Assembly: GCA_030272155.1 (NCBI GenBank)
Contig: CP126196.1
Coordinates: 3,472,001 to 3,536,000, forward strand
Origin: Tetradesmus obliquus
Taxonomy: Eukaryota > Chlorophyta > Chlorophyceae > Sphaeropleales > Scenedesmaceae
Reading direction: 5' to 3'
DNA: 64,000 nucleotides
Numbering within the stretch: the stretch's first letter is position 1; each line of letters begins with the position of its first letter. Below the pieces are notes generated by a model, which saw only the letters and a program-made list of their open reading frames with translations, was not told where the DNA came from and made no database searches. Of the stretch, positions 13,605 through 55,985 are shown piece after piece. Both the position numbers and the translations under genes were made by a program.

Positions 13605-15549
13605 ATGGCTGCACGGAGGACCAACGCTGTGCTGTTGATGTTGATGTGCCTGGTGATGATCACCCCGGCGTGTCTTGCGGGATCGTGTGGAAAGGAAAAG
13701 GCACGCTGCGGCAAAGGTGAATAATGTTTCACCATTGATTGGAGGTGACCAGCTGTAGCAGCTCCGGAACAGTCACTGGGCTGCTGTGCCTAGCAGGCGC
13801 TTACTGCCTGCTGCTGTAACGTGTGCGTGATGTGAGGGTTACTGCACCCATCAGCTGGCACCTGAAGCCAGGGGTTACAACTTGCTTTGAAGCCACTGCA
13901 GCACATGCAAACATCCAACAATAGCGTGCAGATAGCAGTATCAGGCTGGCATCATGCCATGATGACTCATCATGATGATCATGCCATGATGGCATCAGTG
14001 CTCCATGCAGGTGTGACTCACACCACTGGTGATCTGTGGGCACCCATACTGGACGGATGCATACTTTCACATAAAAGAAGCCAATCACGCCTGCAGGATG
14101 CACACATATGAAGCCCTCACGTCAAACGCACGGCGCAGGGCAGATACCAGTAACCAGCATTGCACTTGCTGCGTGGCAATCTGCGCACACTCTCTTGAAA
14201 TTCACGCTGCAATTCACTCGTAAACAATTGCTCCTGCTGACCGCCCGCCAGGCTGCCATGGCTTCCCACCCCTGGTGCCTCATGCCCAGTGGCTAGGCAT
14301 TCAGCAGTGCTCCTCAGCTCTCCCAAATGACAGATGTGTAGCCATATGCGACACCACAGCAGGCTATAAAGGGGCACTCATTGCACGCTGCACATGGCGG
14401 GGCTGGGCCGCTGCGGAGGGCACCTGCACAGCAGTAATGTGCCCCGGCCTGCCTGCTGCTGCTGGGACGGGATCCAAACCTTGGCCCAGGAAATGCAAAG
14501 GCGCTGCTATCGGCGCGACGTGCACCGCGCAGTGCGCCACAGCAGCAGGATACACCGGGAATGCAACCGCGCGCTGCTTGGTGAATGCAGCAGGCGAGCC
14601 GCAATGGTCGGCACCTGGCAACCAGTGTGTGAAGAAGCCGGAATCTGCTGCATGTCTAGGCACGCCTCCGTTCGACCTGCGCAGAAAGGCGGTGTGGCCG
14701 CCGAATGATGGCTGCAATAGCACGGCATCCGGTCAAAAGTGTTATGCGGATTGCTGGGATCCGTACCAGGTGATTCCTATGGTTGCAAGAGTTGTGTAGG
14801 CCTGTTTTGGGTGCGTCTGCAACGTCACTGAAATAGCACGCCACCGCAACACGTGCTGGCACTCAGGCTGCAGCACAAAGTAATGTAGTGATGGCGTGGG
14901 CAGATGCCTTGCTCGGATCCCAGTACTTCCAGAACTGCTGCAGCAGCAGCAGCAGCAGCAGCAATGCTGCTGCTGCAGCTGCAGCTGGGCAGCTCTGCTG
15001 CACTGCTTAGTGAGATGAATTGTTCCAACCTTCTGCTGCAGGGTGGTGGATTCAGCTCCACCTGCGCCAATGGCACCTGGCTGCCTCCTGTTCCGGACCA
15101 CCAAGAGCTCGGCTGGTCCTGGGATGGCTGCTCACCCCACACGCCATCCTGCGGCACTGCCGCTGGCAGCAAGCCACCCCCTGAGAACGCATTGTCAGGA
15201 AGATACCCCTAAACTAATGCCTGCCTGCCTATGTGTGCTGCAGGGTGGTGGCTTTAGCTCCACCTGTGCCAATGGCACCTGGCTGCCACCCGTGCCAGAC
15301 CACCAAGAGCTTGGCTTTCCTTGGGACGGCTGCACACCCCACACACCATCATGTGGCAGCAAACCACCTCCTTATGATGTCCCGGGTGCTGCATGGGAGC
15401 CTGATTGTGAGGATTTGCCTGAGCCACTGAGCTGCGCTGCGCCGTGTGTGGCTCCATATGCGGGGGAGGGCTACTGGGTCAGATGCATGGCGAGCAGCGG
15501 AGGAGACCCCTGGGGGGAGCTGCAGGGAGCAGGGTGCAGCAAGCCCTGA
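13605..15549 (+). CDS. Secreted Cys-rich protein with sushi/CCP-like repeats
   Basis: Three exons (13605-13716, 14252-14769, 15244-15549) join in phase to about 311 aa. Exon 1 is a clean signal peptide: MAARRTNAVLLMLMCLVMIT followed by PACLAG. Exon 2 has repeated Cys modules with the sushi-like pattern C-x(n)-GAxCTAxCxxAAGYxGNAxARC-x(n)-W-x(n)-C (key block CTAQCATAAGYTGNATARC), preceded by a weaker related copy (DTTAGYKGALIARCTW). Exon 3 adds a Cys/Trp-rich module (GGGFSSTCANGTWLPPVPDH) and ends at TGA 15547-15549. There is no C-terminal membrane segment, so extracellular or cell-wall localisation is likely. The sushi assignment is by pattern only; spacing is not canonical. A near-copy of exon 3 lies in the preceding intron at 15042. 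Confidence 0.75.
15042..15370 (+). repeat. Tandem duplicate of the sushi gene's last exon (possible alternative terminal exon)
   Basis: Copies start after CTGCAG at 15042 and 15244 (period 202). Over the first 38 codons I count 12 codons with silent differences and 3 with replacements (W/F, S/P, S/T). The upstream copy stays open to its own TAA near 15210 and would give a shorter protein ending SGRYP. Preserved frame plus silent excess suggests it is or was translated. Confidence 0.85.
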
Positions 15550-25131: not shown

Positions 25132-25961
25132 CACGCCTGCAGCCAGCTGTCTCTGGGCCTGAGCACTGTGCTGGACTGCCCACTGGCCCGCGTTGAGCTG
25201 TATGACCAGGCAGCAGCCATAGCGCAGCAGGTGAGCAGCAACAGCACAGCATGTGCGCTGTCGTCTCTTTGTCAACAGCAGTCGGGAAGCCACAACGCAG
25301 CATGTGGGTGGTAGGGAGGGTGGACCTGTGCGGTCAGGCAGCAGCCATAGCGCAGCAGGTGAGCAGCAACATCACAGCTTTTTTGCTGGTATGTTGTCTC
25401 TTTATCAACAGCAGTCGGGAAGCCACAGCACAGCATGCGGGTGGTAGGGGGGGAGGAGCTTGATGACCAGGCTGCAGCCATAGCACAGCAGGTGAGCAGC
25501 AACAGCACAGCATGGTTGCTGTTATCTCTTTGTCAACAGCAGCCGGGCAGCCACAGCACAGCATGTGGGTGGTAGGGAGGGTGGGCCTGTACGACCAGGC
25601 TGCAGCCATAGCACAGCAGGTGAGCAGCCATAGCGCAGCATGTTTCAGCGGAGCGTGCGTCCTTATGCAGTTGATGCAGCATGGCTTGTGTGACTAGCAG
25701 GGCTTGTGCAGTTGGATCAGCAGAATGCAGTACTGTGTGCCATTGCCAAAGCTGCTGCGTTGTGTTAGGGGTGACCATGCAACCAGCTAAAGCACACATC
25801 AAACACGGCGAGTCCCCATACAAATGGCATGTTGACAAGCCAATCCTCCCCCCTGCTTGTTGCTGTGCTGCTGTTTTATGCAGTATGGTGCAATCATAGC
25901 AGTGGTGGACTGTGTTGCTGCGGATCAAGCAAGGTGGCAGCAGCAGGTGGAGGCACGAGCC

Positions 25962-37427: not shown

Positions 37428-38048
37428 ATTGCTGCCGCCGCTGCTGCTGCCGCCGCCGCTGCTGCTCACCGAGCCGTCGTCCAGTTCCACGTCGTTGACC
37501 TTACAAGGGCCCATCAGCCACTGACACGTCAGCTGCTGCCTCCACTGCTGCTGCTGCAAATCGCTGCTATTGCTGCTGCTGCTGCTCACCGAGCCGTCGT
37601 CTAGCTCCACATCATTGACCTTGCAGGGGCCCATTAGCCACTGGCACGTCAGCGCAGTGGCCAGCGCATTCAGCTTGCAGGAAAACTCCGGAAGCGGTGT
37701 TGAAAACATGACCTGCAGGCCAGCAGCAGCAGCAGCAGCAGCAGCAGGGTTAGCGGCGACAGCAGCAGCAGCAACAACAACAACAGGGGCAGCACTCTCA
37801 AGAGTGTAAAATGCATGCAGTGGCAGCCAGAAAGGCACAGAGATACATGGCAGCAGGTTGCTGATTTTCTAAGCAGGCCTGCTGCTAATCTACTCAGCAG
37901 GTCAGCGCTGCTGCCAGCAACTGTTCTGCTGCAGGGCAGGCTCGCCGTCTGACCTCCTACCCTACCTGCCACATGTTCCTCTGCAGGACTGCTGGAGATC
38001 TGCACTTGCTGCACCTGTATCTGCTACCGATAACCTGACCAAGCTGCC

Positions 38049-43318: not shown

Positions 43319-46300
43319 GCAGCACGCGGTGTGCGCATACCCACTCCACATTGTACTGTGGTACGTTCCGCATACGTCCTGCTGCTTGGCCGCTGACTTT
43401 TGTTGCTTTCCTGCTGCAGGGCCTGAGCGCGCAGCACTACCACGAGGAGCTGGCAGCCACGCAGCAGCTGCTGGTGCTGGTTGACCCCTCGCGCGTGGCA
43501 GCACCCGCAAGCCAGCTGGCAGCAGCGCAGGGCGAGGCAGGCAACACCGCGGCCGCCTACATGGGGGCGGTGCGCGCGCTGCTGCAGATGAGCAGCAGCA
43601 GCCTGGCGGATGTGCCTGGCAAGGTGGTGTTCTGCAGGCAGCGCATCTCACAGGTGAGGCACTTGCTAAGCGGCGCTTGATTGGTGTGAAAACAGCAGGG
43701 AAGTAGTGTTGTGGCACTGTTTTTGTGGTTGACAGATGTGTGCGCGGCAAGTGTGTTCTGCAAGCAGCTCATCTCGCAGGTGAGGCCACGTACTCAACAC
43801 ATACTGCCTGGGCACTGTGGTGTGTTGCATTAGTGTTCTAGAAAGTTGGCATTCTTTGTTTCAGCTGTGTGCCCGGCAAGGTGGTGTTCTGCAGGCAGCG
43901 CATCTTGCAGGTGAAAATTTGACCTCCATGTATGCTTTCGTCTGATGTATGCGGCTTTTAAGAAGTGTGTTACTTTGGCAGCACCCCCATCTCAGCAACT
44001 GCTGACATTGCTGCTGCCGCTGCTGCAGGCTGAGAAGCTGGCCAGCCTTGGGGACCTGGGCAAGGAGAAGTCCCGCCGCCAAGATGCTTATGCAGCACTT
44101 TGTGTAACTGAACCACTGCTGCTGTTGCTGCTGCTGCTGCAGGCTGAGAAGCTGGCCAGCCTTGGGGGCCTGGGCAAGGAGAAGAGCGCCAAGACGCTGG
44201 CGGAGAGTGAGAAGCTACTGGCTGACACGGTGAAGCACTGCGAGGAGATGGTGGCGGGCGCGACCACGGCACTGGAGGGCATGCGCAGCAGGTGCGAGCT
44301 GATTGTTGTCATGTGGGTGCAGTTTGGGTGACAGGCCGTGAGTTAGAAGCTGGACAACAAAGATACGATCAGCCACATCAAAGGGCAGTACACTGACACA
44401 TCATACATCCACCGCGTGCGCGGGTTCCCCGCCTTCAGCGCTGAGCAGCATGCGGAGCTTTCGCAGGCAGCATACGGCATTAATAATTCAATGGGCCGTA
44501 TCAAACGATAGTACACTGACATATGTGTCCCATCTATTGCCGCAGGTTCCCCGCCTTCAGCCCTGAGCAGCAGGCGGAGCTGTCGCAGCTGGCGTACGAG
44601 ATCGAGGACATGATGAGCCACATCAAGGGCCAGTACGAGCTGGCCATGGGCGCAGTGCGTGGCCAAGCGCCCGGTGCAACGCCTGCAGGGCCCTACAACG
44701 CAGCAGCGCAGGGCGCACCCGTGGCTGGTGAGTGGCGCGAGGTGGCGTGCTGCTGTGGAGGAAACCATGGCTGCTGTGTGTTTGTGTGTGTCCTTGGGGT
44801 CTCAGCATCTAGTGTGCAGGGCGCACCTGTGGCTTGTGAGCAAATGCAGGCATAGTGCTGGATGCTTCGAAAGCCTGGATGCCTGCTATATGGTGTGCAG
44901 TGGAGCGGTTGCATGCCTCGTTGTGGCTGCTGCGGCAACTGTGCAAGGCAATGCAGTGGACCACGCAGGTGGCACCCACTTTCACAGCATCGGCTCCTGA
45001 AGCTCACCATTAACATCCCATGTGCATCCGGTGCTGCTGCTGCTGCGCAGGCCTGCCTGGCGGCGTGCCTGTGGGTGCGCCCGTGGGTGGCGCCTTTGTG
45101 CCTGCACCCGGCGGCCCTACTGGCGTGAGGCCTGTGGGCGGCCTGGGCCCCATCATGCCCCCGTCAAGGTGGGTGGCGCTGCAGTTACAGTACTGGATGC
45201 GTTTCTTTAATACATGTGTAGGCCGGCGGTGCTTCAGCTTGACTTGCGGTGTTGACCTACAGCGCAAACAATGATTTAGTGTAGTGGGGGCATGCGGCGC
45301 CACTGGCGTGAAGCCCGTGGGACGCCTGGGCCCTATCATGCCTCCTTTCAGGTGAGTCTGGGCCCTATCATGCCTCCTTTCAGGTGAGTCTGGGCCCTAT
45401 CATGCCTCCTTTCAGGTGAGTCTGGGCCCTATCATGCCTCCTTTCAGGTGAGTCTGGGCCCTATCATGCCTCCTTTCAGGTGAGTCTGGGCCCTATCATG
45501 CCTCCTTTCAGGTGAGTCTGGGCCCTATCATGCCTCCTTTCAGGTGAGTCTGGGCCCTATCATGCCTCCTTTCAGGTGAGTCTGGGCCCTATCATGCCTC
45601 CTTTCAGGTGAGTCTGGGCCTATCATGCCTCCTTTCAGGTGAGTCTGGGCCCTATCATGCCTCCTTTCAGGTGAGTCTGGGCCCTATCATGCCTCCTTTC
45701 AGGTGAGTCTGGGCCCTATCATGCCTCCTTTCAGGTGAGTCTGGGCCCTATCATGCCTCCTTTCAGGTGAGTCTGGGCCCTATCATGCCTCCTTTCAGGT
45801 GAGTCTGGGCCCTATCATGCCTCCTTTCAGGTGAGTCTGGGCCCTATCATGCCTCCTTTCAGGTGAGTCTGGGCCCTATCATGCCTCCTTTCAGGTGAGT
45901 CTGGGCCCTATCATGCCTCCTTTCAGGTGAGTCTGGGCCCTATCATGCCTCCTTTCAGGTGAGTCTGCTGCGTTTGCATCAATGTTGGATTGGTGTGAAC
46001 AGAGAGAGGCAGGTGATGCTTCTGTCATGTTTTGGCTTGCAGCTGACAGTATAGGTGGGTAACCCAAGGCTGAGTGTCTCGCCTTGCCTGCGCGCCGGGG
46101 ACCGTGTGCGCAGCACTCCACGTTGCCCTGTGGCCACCTGCAACGGCACTCCTGTGGCCACATCATATACCTGTGGTTTTGACGTCTGCATCTCCTCCTT
46201 GTTCCTGCACCTGCAGCGCTGCACCCGGCCCTGTGGCCACCTCAAACGGCAGCCACGCACCCAAGCCCGCACCAGCAGCCGCTGCTGCCCCGCGACCTGC

Positions 46301-51038: not shown

Positions 51039-54000
51039 TTCATGCTTAAAGGTGCCTAGCTCTAGCAGGGTGGGGTTGGCTGCACAGCAGGGGAGAAGCA
51101 GCAGCAGATGCGGCAGCAGAAATCAACGGCATGCACAGCTGGCAGCGATGCAGCAGCATGTCACAGACTGCTGCTTACAGCAGACACATGCAGGCACGCA
51201 AAACACAGATCGCAGCGCAGGCACAACTCAATAGCACGCATCGCTATGCACCACACACATCCACCCATTAACGAGGCATCCAAAACCCAAGCAACTTAGG
51301 ATGCTCACCTTCTGCCGCCCCTGGCAGCTGCAGCGGCTGCTTGTTGTAGAGCACCTGCACCACAAACGGCCCTGGCGCCTCACTGCTGCTGCTGCTGCAG
51401 CTGCTGCTGGCTGCTGCTGCATTGCCTGCTGCCATGTTAATTTGCAGCTGGTGTGTGGGTGGCTTCAGCTCCCTCAGCTTAAACACCAGGTTGCTTATGC
51501 ATGACAAACCAACAGCAGGCATGATGCGCCACAAGCAATCACGCACAGTCCAAGCCAATGCACCCGCATACTGCTCACCTTCTGCTGCCCCCGGCAGCTG
51601 CAGCGGCTGCTTGTTGTACAGCACCCGCACCACAAACGGCCCCGGCGCCTCACTGCTGCTGCTGCTGCTGGCTGCTGCTGCATTGCCTGCTGCCATGTTA
51701 TTTTGCAGCTGGTGTGTGGGTGGCTTCAGCTCCCACAGCTCAAACACCAGGTTGCTGATGTAGGGGGGCCAGCGCTGCAAGTCACAGCCCAGCGCTGCGT
51801 GCACAACAAGCAGGATTGTACGTTGTGTTTAGTTAGGGATAAGATATGTCATGTCAACAAACATTTGGGGCCCAGCGCTGCAGGTCACAGCCCAGTGCTG
51901 CGTGAGGAAAACAAGTGCACAAGAACACGCGTTGCTTATGAGTTGTTTGGGACAGAGACTTTATCAAGGGATGCATCACACATGTCTTGGAACTGGACTA
52001 CCGCATGAAACAGCAGCTGCAACGGACAATCACATCCTGATGCACAACAGGACGCATGACGGGGAGCAAGCGAGTTTTGCAGTACGGCGCGTGCATTCAT
52101 GCCAAGTTCATACTCCCAACAAAGATCACGCGAACACCACCCTGCAGAAGCTTGCTGGCACACAACAGCAAGCCTGGCAGTCTCTTCAGTCTTGAAAGCA
52201 CAACAAAGCACATGTCAAACATGCATACTAGATAATAAAATGGCTCACCTGTGAGCAGCGGCATGATGGTGGAGTCATGCCCACTGAACATCATCAGCTT
52301 GGCATGGCTGCTGCTGCTGCTGCTGCCAGCCTGGCCTGCTGCTGCTGCTGCTGCTGTCTCCATGTTTGCCAGCAGGATGTCCAGCAGCCGCCCCATGCTC
52401 AGCCGCAGCACTGCGTGGCCGTGCTCATCAACGAGCGCGGGGCAGATGAACGCAGAAATCTCCTCTGTTGCCTGCAAGTGTTGGCACATACAGCATTTTA
52501 GACATCTGCTCAGCCGCAGCACTGCGTGGCCGTGCTCATCAACGAGCGCAGGGCAGATAAAGGCGGAAATCTCCTCCGTGGCCTGCAAATAATGGCAGCA
52601 TTGCATATTGCCAGCATTATTTGCTCATCAACCAGGGCGGGGCATTTGAATGCAGAAATCTCCTCCGCTGCCTGCAAGTGTTGGCACATACAGGATCAGT
52701 TGTCAAAGCAATACGTTGCATCAACTGGGTTGCCTGCATAGCAAGCAAGCGGGCGGATAAACGCAGAGATCTCCTCTGTTGCCTGCACACAATGGCACGT
52801 GCAGCATAATGTTTGCCAGCAGGATGTCCAGCAGCCGCCCCATGCTCAGCCGCAGCACTGCATGGCCGTGCTCATCAACCAGGGCGGGGCAGATGAACGC
52901 AGAAATCTCCTCCGTCGCCTGCAGGACACATGCAGCAATGAACGTTGCAGATGAGCATGATATCATGTTTGTTGCCCGCATGGCTATGGTTATCCACCAG
53001 GGCCAGGCAGATGAACGCAGTAAATTTCTCCGTTGCCTGCAAACAACAGCACATGCAGCACTGCACATGGCAGGTGAGAGCTGACATGTCCAGCAGCCGC
53101 CCCATGCTCAGCCGCAGCACTGCGTGGCCGTGCTCATCAACCAGTGCCGGACAGATAAAAGCAGAGATCTCCTCAGTCGCCTGCAAGTGTTGGTACATAC
53201 AGCGTTTCAGACATCTGCTCAGCCGCAGCACTGCGTGGCCGTGCTCATCAACGAGCGCAGGGCAGATGAAGGCGGAAATCTCCTCCGTGGCCTGCAAGTG
53301 TTGGCACATACAGCATTTTAGACCTCTGCTCAGCCGCAGCACTGCGTGCCCGTGGCTGTCCACCAGACCCGGGCAGACGGAGGCAGATATCTCCTCAGTC
53401 ACCTGCAGGACACATGCAGCAGCGCAAATTGCAGAACCGCCAGCACGCACCGCACACACAAAGAGACGACAACTCGGGGAACTGCACAAGCATGAATTCA
53501 CAGAACCAGCATCCAGGAAACAGCCATGCACAAACAACAACCAGATTCACAGTGAGTGTGTTGTTGTGCTCACCAGCCTGTCCACTGCCTCCTTCATCTC
53601 CTCGGTCAGGCCGTGAGGCAGCGCCTTGCCGTGGGCGGCTAGCGAGGTGAAGGCGTCATGCACGTCACTCATCATCCACCTGCAGGTAGCAGAACAAGCC
53701 AGAGGCAGAAACAATCAAATGCCTCTTTCTTCATAGCCCTGCATGCTGCTGGTTGTCCACACCGTGCAAGTGCATGCACCCAACACATATCCCTAGTCAC
53801 GTGTGGGAAATCTACACGCTGCTGCTGCTGCTGCTGCTGCTGGCTCTCTGCAGCCATTCAAAAAGGCACATTGCCCCCGTGCACCTGAAAGGACAGTGCT
53901 GTCTCCTTACCTCTTATCCCATGCTCCCTCTGGCAGGTTGAGCAGCTGTGTGAGCTGCTGCTGCAGCTGCTTGATGCCCTGCGCTCTGCTGGGGCTCTCC

Positions 54001-55985
54001 CAGCTCGCTGCAGCAGCACAGTGCAGCACAGTGCAGCACAATGAAGTACAGCAGGCAGATATGTTGCATTCAGATTCACGTCTGGCACGCTGTGGGTGAC
54101 TTGCACTTGCAGCCCTGCTGGGCTCCCCCAGCTTGCTGCAGCAGCACATAAACCAGACATCGCAGATGCTAGCAACACATTGGGCAGCGCTGCCTACCCA
54201 GCACCCTACACCTCCTTAGTACTGCTGCTCAGTTGTAGTCCAGGCAAACCTGCCCTACCCCAGTTTGGAACTCAATTATTGCTGTTTTAGCAGTCACTGC
54301 CTGCTCAACTCACCTTTGAGCATTGCCTCTGAGTCCTGCGTCAGCACCTTGAGGTGTGGGCAGCCCTACCCGCCCAACACACAAACAAAAATACTGCTGT
54401 CTGTGCTGTTGTTTGTGTGTGCTAGCTGCTTGATCCACTCACCTTTCAGCATCGCCTCTGATGCCTGCGTCAGCACCTTGAGGTGTGGGCAGCGCTGGCC
54501 TGCCCAACACCCTGAACCAATGTATGTGCTGTGAACTGTTGGTACGCGCTGCAATTCTCATTCACCCTTGAGCATTGCCTGTGAGGCTTGCATTAGCACC
54601 TTGAGGTGGGGGCAGCGCTGCCCTACCCAACACCCCAAACCCTTCTTTCTCTGTACCACAATTCATACCTAGACTGTACTAGCGCTGCCACTCACCCTTG
54701 AGCATGGCTTTTGAGGTTTGCATCAGCACCTTGAGGGCAGCAGCTCTACCCACCCAACACATAAACAAATCACCATTGTCTGTGCTGTTGTTTGCGTGTA
54801 CTAGCTGCTTAATCGACTCACCTTTGACCATCGCTTCCGAGGCCTGCATGAGAACCTTGAGGTGTGGGCAGCGCTGGCCTGCCCAACACCCTGAACCAAT
54901 GTATGTGCTGTGAACTGTTTGTACGCACTGAGATCTCTCACTCACCCTTGAGCATTGCCTCTGAGGCTTGCATTAGCACCTTGAGTGAGGGGCAGCGCTG
55001 GCCTACACAGCGTTATAAACCTACTTTCTCTGTACCCAAACGTACATCTGCTCTGTACTGATCGTGCTACTCACCCTTGAGCATGGCTTCTGAGGCTTGC
55101 ATGAGCACTTTGAGGTGGGGGCAGCGCTTGGTGTCTGCATACAGAATCTCATCTAGATCACCCGAGGTGGTCACGGGGATGGGCTGCATGACGCCTGTGC
55201 ATTGTGAGCGGCAGAAACAAAGATGTTTGAGCGAGATGTGCACACATGATCTCATCTAGGTCGGCTGAGGTGGTCACAGGAATGGGCTGGCTGACACCTG
55301 CGCATTGTGTGCAGCCCGAAAAAAAAGCACGAGTCAGTGGGATGCGCATACAAAATCTCACCCTGATCACCAGAGGTGGCCACGTGATGTACCGGCTGAC
55401 GCCTGCGCCCATGCCAAACGCCTAATGCGCAAGCGTCTACTGCTGAAGCATCTACTAGCTGTGGATGCTGCTGCATTGTAGTATTGTTCTACTGGTCACT
55501 GGGATGGCGGTTGTAGATTGTTCGGTATGCTATGCTGCACTAGCACTCCTGCAGCTGTCGCAATGCCTCCCTGTTGCACTCCCTCATGCACACCTGGGTA
55601 TAATCCTGTCAGCACGCCCGCCAGGGTGGCACGCGTGCGGCTGAAGTTGGTGGTACGTGCAGCCACCACGCCTGGTGCAACAGCAGCAGCACAAAAAGCA
55701 AAAAGAAAGCACAGCAAGGCGCCGCAGCACGTCACCAACAGTCAGAAGCAAGCACAAGCAAGAGGCATCATGCCGGGCGTTGAACAACAGCTGCAACAGC
55801 AGCATATCTTGCAAGCACCAGTGCATACCATTTAAGCATTGGCAAACCTGGTCAAAGTTGATCAAACACAGTCAAACATGGTCAAACATGGTCAACGGCT
55901 CACCTGGCTTGAGGCTGGCAGGCAGGAAGCCGTAGGTGTCTATGTACTGCTGCCGCAGCCAGTAGCCCAACTCCAGCGCCTTGTT

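Follow-up and report, generated by a model that had tools for sequence, protein, structure and literature searches.

Copies of exon edges, with the splice signals beside them, lie in the introns of an ACP6-like histidine phosphatase gene and of several other genes of Tetradesmus obliquus. The duplications span exon-intron borders, the copies differ from their exons with a bias towards silent changes, the same bias marks copies that are unusable as ordinary exons, and one copy is significantly mosaic. Our best reading, to which we assign a probability of roughly 0.48, is that the copies are skipped intronic relics of tandem duplication across such borders, and that their silent differences would have arisen in other functional versions of the exons.

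The exon-7 array and its host gene

The array lies in a minus-strand gene at about 57.7 to 51 kb of the window, the 64,000-nucleotide stretch of DNA analyzed here, which is part of contig C6 of a 104.66-Mb genome in 17 contigs and is rich in CAG/CTG repeats. The single-copy exons of this gene, joined by hand, matched His_Phos_2 (PF00328) at 4.1e-23 and, without the copies, lysophosphatidic acid phosphatase type 6 (ACP6; 4job) at 3.1e-21 over residues 1-328 of 330. The RHGARTP and GHDST of the host protein align with 4job, and RHGxRxP and HD motifs are characteristic of His_Phos_2. Having both the domain and the motifs, the predicted product is an ACP6-like histidine phosphatase. The ACP6 alignment is weak, with a gap nearby, at the point where the 57-nt copies described below would be inserted. 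The best phosphatase match outside the locus is 40% identical over 162 residues; a family search also gave a further weak match on contig C2.

Exon 7 (VMQPIPVTTSGDLDEILYADTKRCPHLKVLMQASEAMLK; 55075..55194, minus strand, as are all features of this gene) is followed by a GTGAGT donor. The exon end and its donor, at 55075, recur at 54946, 54822, 54696, 54566, 54443 and 54314, at successive spacings of 129, 124, 126, 130, 123 and 129 nt, and GTGAGT is kept in five of the six copies, the exception being C4, in which it has changed to GTGAAT. In four copies, C1 (54946..55002; QRCPSLKVLMQASEAMLK), C2 (54822..54878), C4 (54566..54622) and C5 (54443..54499), an AG encloses exactly 57 nt with phase 1 at both ends. 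The six recurrences at 123-130 nt and the four 57-nt pieces had been noticed in a preliminary description of this DNA, and all of their coordinates were confirmed. The other two copies, C3 (54696..54745) and C6 (54314..54365), are broken: read by eye, they are 50 and 52 nt long from the nearest AG and are not frame-neutral. A donor, an acceptor and a frame-neutral length, which a cassette array would have in every unit, thus occur together in four of the six units. What the array does have throughout is head-to-tail copies in which exon sequence is joined to intron sequence from one and the same border, as expected of a border-spanning tandem duplication.

The repeat is far from chance, with Tandem Repeats Finder (TRF) scores of 481 for a 123-nt period and 1141 for a 379-nt period. 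Judged by the likeness of their intron parts, the exon goes with C3, C1 with C4 and C2 with C5. Together with the 379-nt period, this pairing indicates that a block of three units was itself duplicated (54308..55117; duplication families D7 and D12), exon+C1+C2 giving C3+C4+C5, so that the six copies do not represent as many independent lineages. A seventh, exon-less piece of the repeat, recognized by eye at 54182..54204 (GTGCTGGGTAGGCAGCGCTGCCC), is probably an intron remnant where the first duplication ended. The sequence AGCGCTGCCC is common to exon 7 and to this remnant (by eye) and could plausibly mark where the first unequal exchange took place, in which case the copies' acceptors would derive from the TAG before it. 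The four intact copies are each one base longer than the remnant at that point. Since AGCGCTGCCC is shared by exon and remnant, the acceptor probably arrived with the first duplication, and frame-neutrality would then amount to about one 1-in-3 event rather than four.

Silent bias and splice signals of the exon-7 copies

Over the 17 codons after the first, C5 differs from exon 7 by nine silent codons and one replacement codon and C2 by seven and one, which reproduces the counts given previously; the first codon, AAG versus CAG, adds one replacement to each. The same 17-codon count gave four silent and one replacement for C1, and three and one for C4. A codon model of these 17 codons in seven sequences returned an omega of 0.12 (2dlnL 23.2 against omega=1), with five codons of C3 and one of C6 masked as broken, a masking by which the test favours constraint. 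Omega was about 0 on the deep branches and 0.26 on those that postdate the block duplication (2dlnL 6.0; P about 0.014 for a value below 1), the latter value being a hint of continuing constraint.

To set these counts against decay, we simulated dead copies that exchange symmetrically with a selected exon, starting from identical copies, in 26 settings of 60 arrays with six copies each. At least seven silent differences were reached by 39 of the 9360 simulated copies, and at most one replacement accompanied them in one of these 39, compared with two of the six copies observed. Decay with or without symmetric gene conversion therefore fails to reproduce the bias, and another cause is needed. 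Symmetric gene conversion with a selective filter, in which the exon rejects amino-acid changes, was discarded as a candidate, as the 26 simulated settings yielded no silent bias.

Between positions -20 and -4, the acceptors of C1, C2, C4 and C5 contain 35-47% pyrimidines, compared with 53-76% in the 11 modelled acceptors of the gene. In C2 and C5, an extra AG lies 12 bases before the exon start that the acceptor AG gives, and it defines an in-frame 69-nt piece.

Among the intact recent pairs, the exon parts differ at 4 of 54 bases in C1-C4 and 8 of 54 in C2-C5 (12/108 together, ungapped), and the intron parts at 5 of 66 (one gap column) and 8 of 68 (five gap columns), or 13/134 and six gap columns together. 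In both pairs, exon and intron parts have diverged about equally, with no clear sign of stronger conservation in the exon parts. The broken pair of exon 7 and C3 has 6 differences in 49 bases (four gap columns) in the exon part versus 15 in 69 (seven gap columns) in the intron part. When likeness was measured in 12-column windows across six sequences, with C6 left out, it was 0.68-0.90 in the exon and donor, 0.34-0.70 in the intron interior and 0.67-0.80 in the acceptor stretch.

Exon-edge copies elsewhere in the gene and the genome

Border-spanning intronic copies occur at both ends of exon 7, at the starts of exons 8 and 10 and at both ends of exon 11. Each adjoins the edge that it repeats, copies of starts lying upstream and copies of ends downstream, and the same holds in the HSP70, mtHSP70-like, CCT-like and IF2/EF-Tu-like loci described below. 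A copy of the exon-7 start with its acceptor lies upstream of exon 7 (55239..55324; family D13, 78% to 55136-55221), and one of the exon-8 start with its acceptor lies upstream of exon 8, whose modelled acceptor is at 54007 (54120..54148; family D17, 93%). Exon 11 has a copy of its start upstream (51867..51904; family D16, 92%) and a copy of its end and donor downstream (51302..51499; families D10 and D11, 95%), the differences in the latter being about half silent and half replacement by eye.

The exon-10 array consists of the pieces D1-D9 (52362..53407), with an acceptor and ATEEISAFICPALVDEHGHAVLRLS-like sequence and many of them at 111-nt spacing, and no consensus donor was seen there. D2, D3, D5, D8 and D9 code for the same 25 residues, with up to 10 silent differences among the seven pairs counted. 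By eye, the GTs in reach after D1-D3 (GTCTAA, GTCTGA and GTCAGC) are none of them like the usual donor, and no GT was seen in reach of D5. Reading frames entered from D1-D5 end ahead of the catalytic HD region, so D2, D3 and D5 are apparently unusable by ordinary splicing. The array can be read open in frame from D8 into D9 and through D1-D4, and D8 could be usable in frame with D9. D5 and D8 differ at eight sites. D9 agrees with neither of them at the first of these, with D5 at the four that follow and with D8 at the remaining three, a pattern like a mosaic, and exon 10 as it now stands resembles a mosaic of its copies. PHI-style recombination tests were not significant (P 0.63 for the exon-10 array and 0.44), with only 7 and 8 informative sites.

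Several other repeats were observed in the window. At 15034-15360, an acceptor and about 40 codons occur twice, 202 nt apart, with 12 silent and 3 replacement codons; an early stop closes the first copy, which leaves room for two alternative C-terminal exons. At 37467-37651, an exon end and its donor are duplicated in frame (120 nt) with eight silent and no replacement differences, and the putative intron between them, read by eye, is open in frame and may therefore all be exon. An array of 3.5 copies of 128 nt at 25198-25645, with an apparent exon end and GTGAGC, is perhaps another donor-side array. Twenty near-perfect 32-nt repeats at 45326-45967 each carry CAG|GTGAGT, where an acceptor and a donor may coincide, as in a dual-specific or recursive splice-site motif.

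Beyond the window, we sampled 290 kb (pieces L003-L031), giving 354 kb in 30 pieces with the window included, and counted matches such that one array may contribute several. Local tandem duplications cover part of 22 of the 30 pieces, with a peak at 100-160-nt spacing and a second at 220-280 nt, and border-spanning local duplications are common in this genome. Phase tests on the local duplications outside the window gave 5 of 240 at P<=0.01 and 16 of 240 at P<=0.05; inside the window, the corresponding numbers were 21 and 33 of 91. The small number of biased cases in the 240 outside tests indicates that silent bias is not general to local duplications. Two further arrays look silently biased, in L011 (7:1) and L024 (6:1 and 4:0), and were kept out of the pooled count given below because they are the top hits of the 240-test scan; other copies in both are visibly decayed by eye. 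One sampled piece (L022:1-10000) is filled by an exact tandem repeat of 3682 nt.

We then searched four conserved families and counted, by eye and among the best candidates listed, the loci at which overlapping exon matches indicate copies. Among the matches listed, these were at least two of nine HSP70 loci, at least one of 11 Cpn60/TCP1 loci (contigs C15, C12 and C4 hold further candidates) and one of 23 GTP_EFTU loci, and there were no obvious exon copies in about nine tubulin loci. Four loci were read: HSP70 on contig C17, mtHSP70-like on contig C13, and CCT-like and IF2/EF-Tu-like on contig C16. The names mtHSP70, CCT and IF2 are our reading of the sequence, as the family searches say only HSP70, Cpn60_TCP1 and GTP_EFTU.

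The HSP70, mtHSP70-like and CCT-like copies repeat the exon start and acceptor. In the four copies followed downstream (HSP70 c2, mtHSP70-like c2, CCT-like c1 and c2), there is no GT within 28 nt after the homology ends, and reading on from the acceptors meets stops in c1 and c2 of all three loci. Copy and exon nonetheless differ by 5:0 silent to replacement changes in HSP70, 7:1 and 7:0 in mtHSP70-like and 8:2 and 6:0 in CCT-like, a pooled 33 silent to 3 replacement over five comparisons (P 1e-7 even with half of the changes expected to be replacements). HSP70 c1 and mtHSP70-like c1, near-identical or identical to c2, were not pooled, and mtHSP70-like c0 was counted over the 21 codons ahead of a frame-breaking change. 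The HSP70, CCT and IF2 cases came to light through protein similarity, a route biased towards copies that have few replacements; selection of that kind would lead one to expect few silent changes too. The mtHSP70-like copies also have silent changes of their own (AGC where the others have TCN), which rules out the idea that the copies are frozen and only the true exon changes.

The IF2/EF-Tu-like copy repeats an exon end and donor and, much like the intact exon-7 copies, gives a frame-neutral piece, here of 114 nt and separated from the exon by a 78-nt gap; it was left unpooled because it has a donor. Its inclusion would duplicate 38 residues of the GTPase domain and should wreck the GTPase. 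It differs from its exon by 12 silent and one replacement changes and is mosaic, its first half holding 13 of the 14 differences (P 0.0009). Because both this copy and the unusable ones are biased, silent bias is no proof of use in this genome, even when combined with a frame-neutral length.

This result bears on the central proposal of the preliminary description, that a bias of this size is not expected of dead intron and that the copies resemble a small combinatorial exon array. The first half of the proposal is supported by the overall omega and by the single comparable copy in 9360 simulated ones. As to the second, four copies are formally spliceable in frame and the recent omega is 0.26, but the bias does not by itself show use when HSP70, mtHSP70-like and CCT-like copies and the exon-10 array have it as well. 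The acceptors of C1, C2, C4 and C5, poorer in pyrimidines than any of the 11 modelled ones, the two broken copies and the similar divergence of exon and intron parts also speak against a working array.

The intron beside a copy is in several cases near-identical to that beside the true exon (0/40, 1/66, 1/68 and 1/36 differences; L032, L033 and L043), while the exon parts have diverged silently. Other pairs are without near-identical introns, for example CCT-like c2 (9/42), D5 (5/28) and L024 (9/49). DNA searches with one HSP70 and one mtHSP70-like copy found matches in the arrays only. A donor paralog was sought in seven HSP70-family pieces (L034-L040), against which the copies scored lower than the true exons, the same in L038; L037 was the sole piece to score higher against the copies, by a borderline two points.

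Origin of the copies and comparison with known systems

We propose that successive rounds of local tandem duplication spanning the exon-intron border would have placed copies of the exon-7 end and donor in the intron, and that the 379-nt block duplication followed the single-unit ones. Donor 55075 is most likely spliced directly to 54007, the copies being removed with the intron, and border-spanning duplications would be tolerated because splicing can ignore them. The copies would inherit silent differences from versions that evolved as functional exons, with little decay since. Candidate sources are diverged alleles, a hybridising lineage or lost paralogs, presumably joined by unequal exchange; searches for such a source through copy DNA, HSP70-family pieces and phosphatase paralogs found none. 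Near-identical introns beside diverged exon copies are not what simple allelic exchange predicts and count against it, since exon and intron parts would have had to be exchanged separately. The recent omega and the better conservation of donor and exon columns than of the intron interior are hints against this relic reading. A broader conjecture, which we consider unlikely, is that exon edges evolve by shuffling functional silent variants, with a genome-wide intronic reservoir of recently functional, near protein-identical edge copies still exchanging with the adjoining exon.

If C1, C2, C4 and C5 were instead working cassette microexons, present in some mRNAs, each would add 19 residues, or 23 for C2 and C5 through their earlier AG. 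GT and AG are rightly placed with phase 1/1 in all four, the extra 12 bases of C2 and C5 keep the frame too, the insertion point falls in a weak, near-gap part of the ACP6 alignment, and both the omega values (0.12 overall, about 0 deep, 0.26 recent) and the excess likeness of exon and donor windows over the intron interior are as such exons would have them. We nevertheless think this improbable, given equal bias in copies unable to be ordinary exons, pyrimidine-poor acceptors, two broken copies in six, and three junctions that would need introns of 66-72 nt. The exon-less piece ending at 54182 is, moreover, about as conserved at the acceptor as the others (by eye).

It is similarly doubtful that some copies are former exons, once constitutive or alternative coding repeats and lately dropped from the mRNA. 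Deep constraint followed by recent decay would fit the rise of omega from about 0 to 0.26, the broken C3 and C6, the changed donor of C4 and the open frames of the exon-10 array (D8 into D9, and D1-D4); the donor-less, stop-bearing silent copies in HSP70, mtHSP70-like and CCT-like would stay unexplained, so that a second cause is needed anyway. Far less credible than either is that the copies are plainly dead and decay neutrally, whether or not the functional exon converts them, and that the bias is an accident of small numbers. Most local duplications tested outside the window have no phase bias, silent and replacement changes both occur on recent branches, and the exon-11 end copy and the decayed copies in L011 and L024 look as dead copies should. 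Against this stand the rejection of omega=1 and the simulation, which covers symmetric exchange from identical starts only, and at face value the dead-copy explanation is rejected.

A silent-over-replacement bias is a standard sign of a used exon. Here, it also marks fragments that are not ordinarily spliceable, which could mislead gene finders and readers alike. If, as the relic reading has it, the copies come from diverged functional versions, they are a record of recombination between lineages; if they do not, some process must be holding unusable exon fragments to the same protein sequence. Both answers matter for intron growth and for splice-site choice among near-identical decoys.

In tandem exon duplications and mutually exclusive arrays of the Dscam type, each copy is a complete exon of shown use. 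The exon-7 array resembles these in having several similar exon-like copies with a conserved reading frame in one gene, and differs in that its units are exon fragments, two of six broken, for which use would be a prediction from the DNA. We found no report of such exon-edge arrays in open-licence PMC papers, and none there on exon duplication in Scenedesmus. The abstracts on the two closest systems, potato RdRp (PMC4974935) and polyubiquitin UBC (PMC10809524), do not mention silently diverged, unusable copies of exon edges. In the potato RdRp gene, the abstract reports the detection of a tandem genomic duplication across an intron-exon boundary, one duplication giving one new intron (PMC4974935). 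Common to that case and ours is a short intragenic tandem duplication over an exon-intron border in which splice signals are copied; the algal copies, read from genomic sequence, form arrays of 100-160-nt units at many borders and have diverged silently. UBC carries an array of dual-specific AGGT splice sites, its unit being a whole ubiquitin monomer with AGGT borders, and isoforms of variable unit number are reported from RNA in the abstract (PMC10809524). The units described here are instead an exon end and donor with a separate, pyrimidine-poor AG, as read from the DNA; like those of UBC, they are repeated in tandem and each brings its own splice sites, which could yield isoforms of variable unit number.
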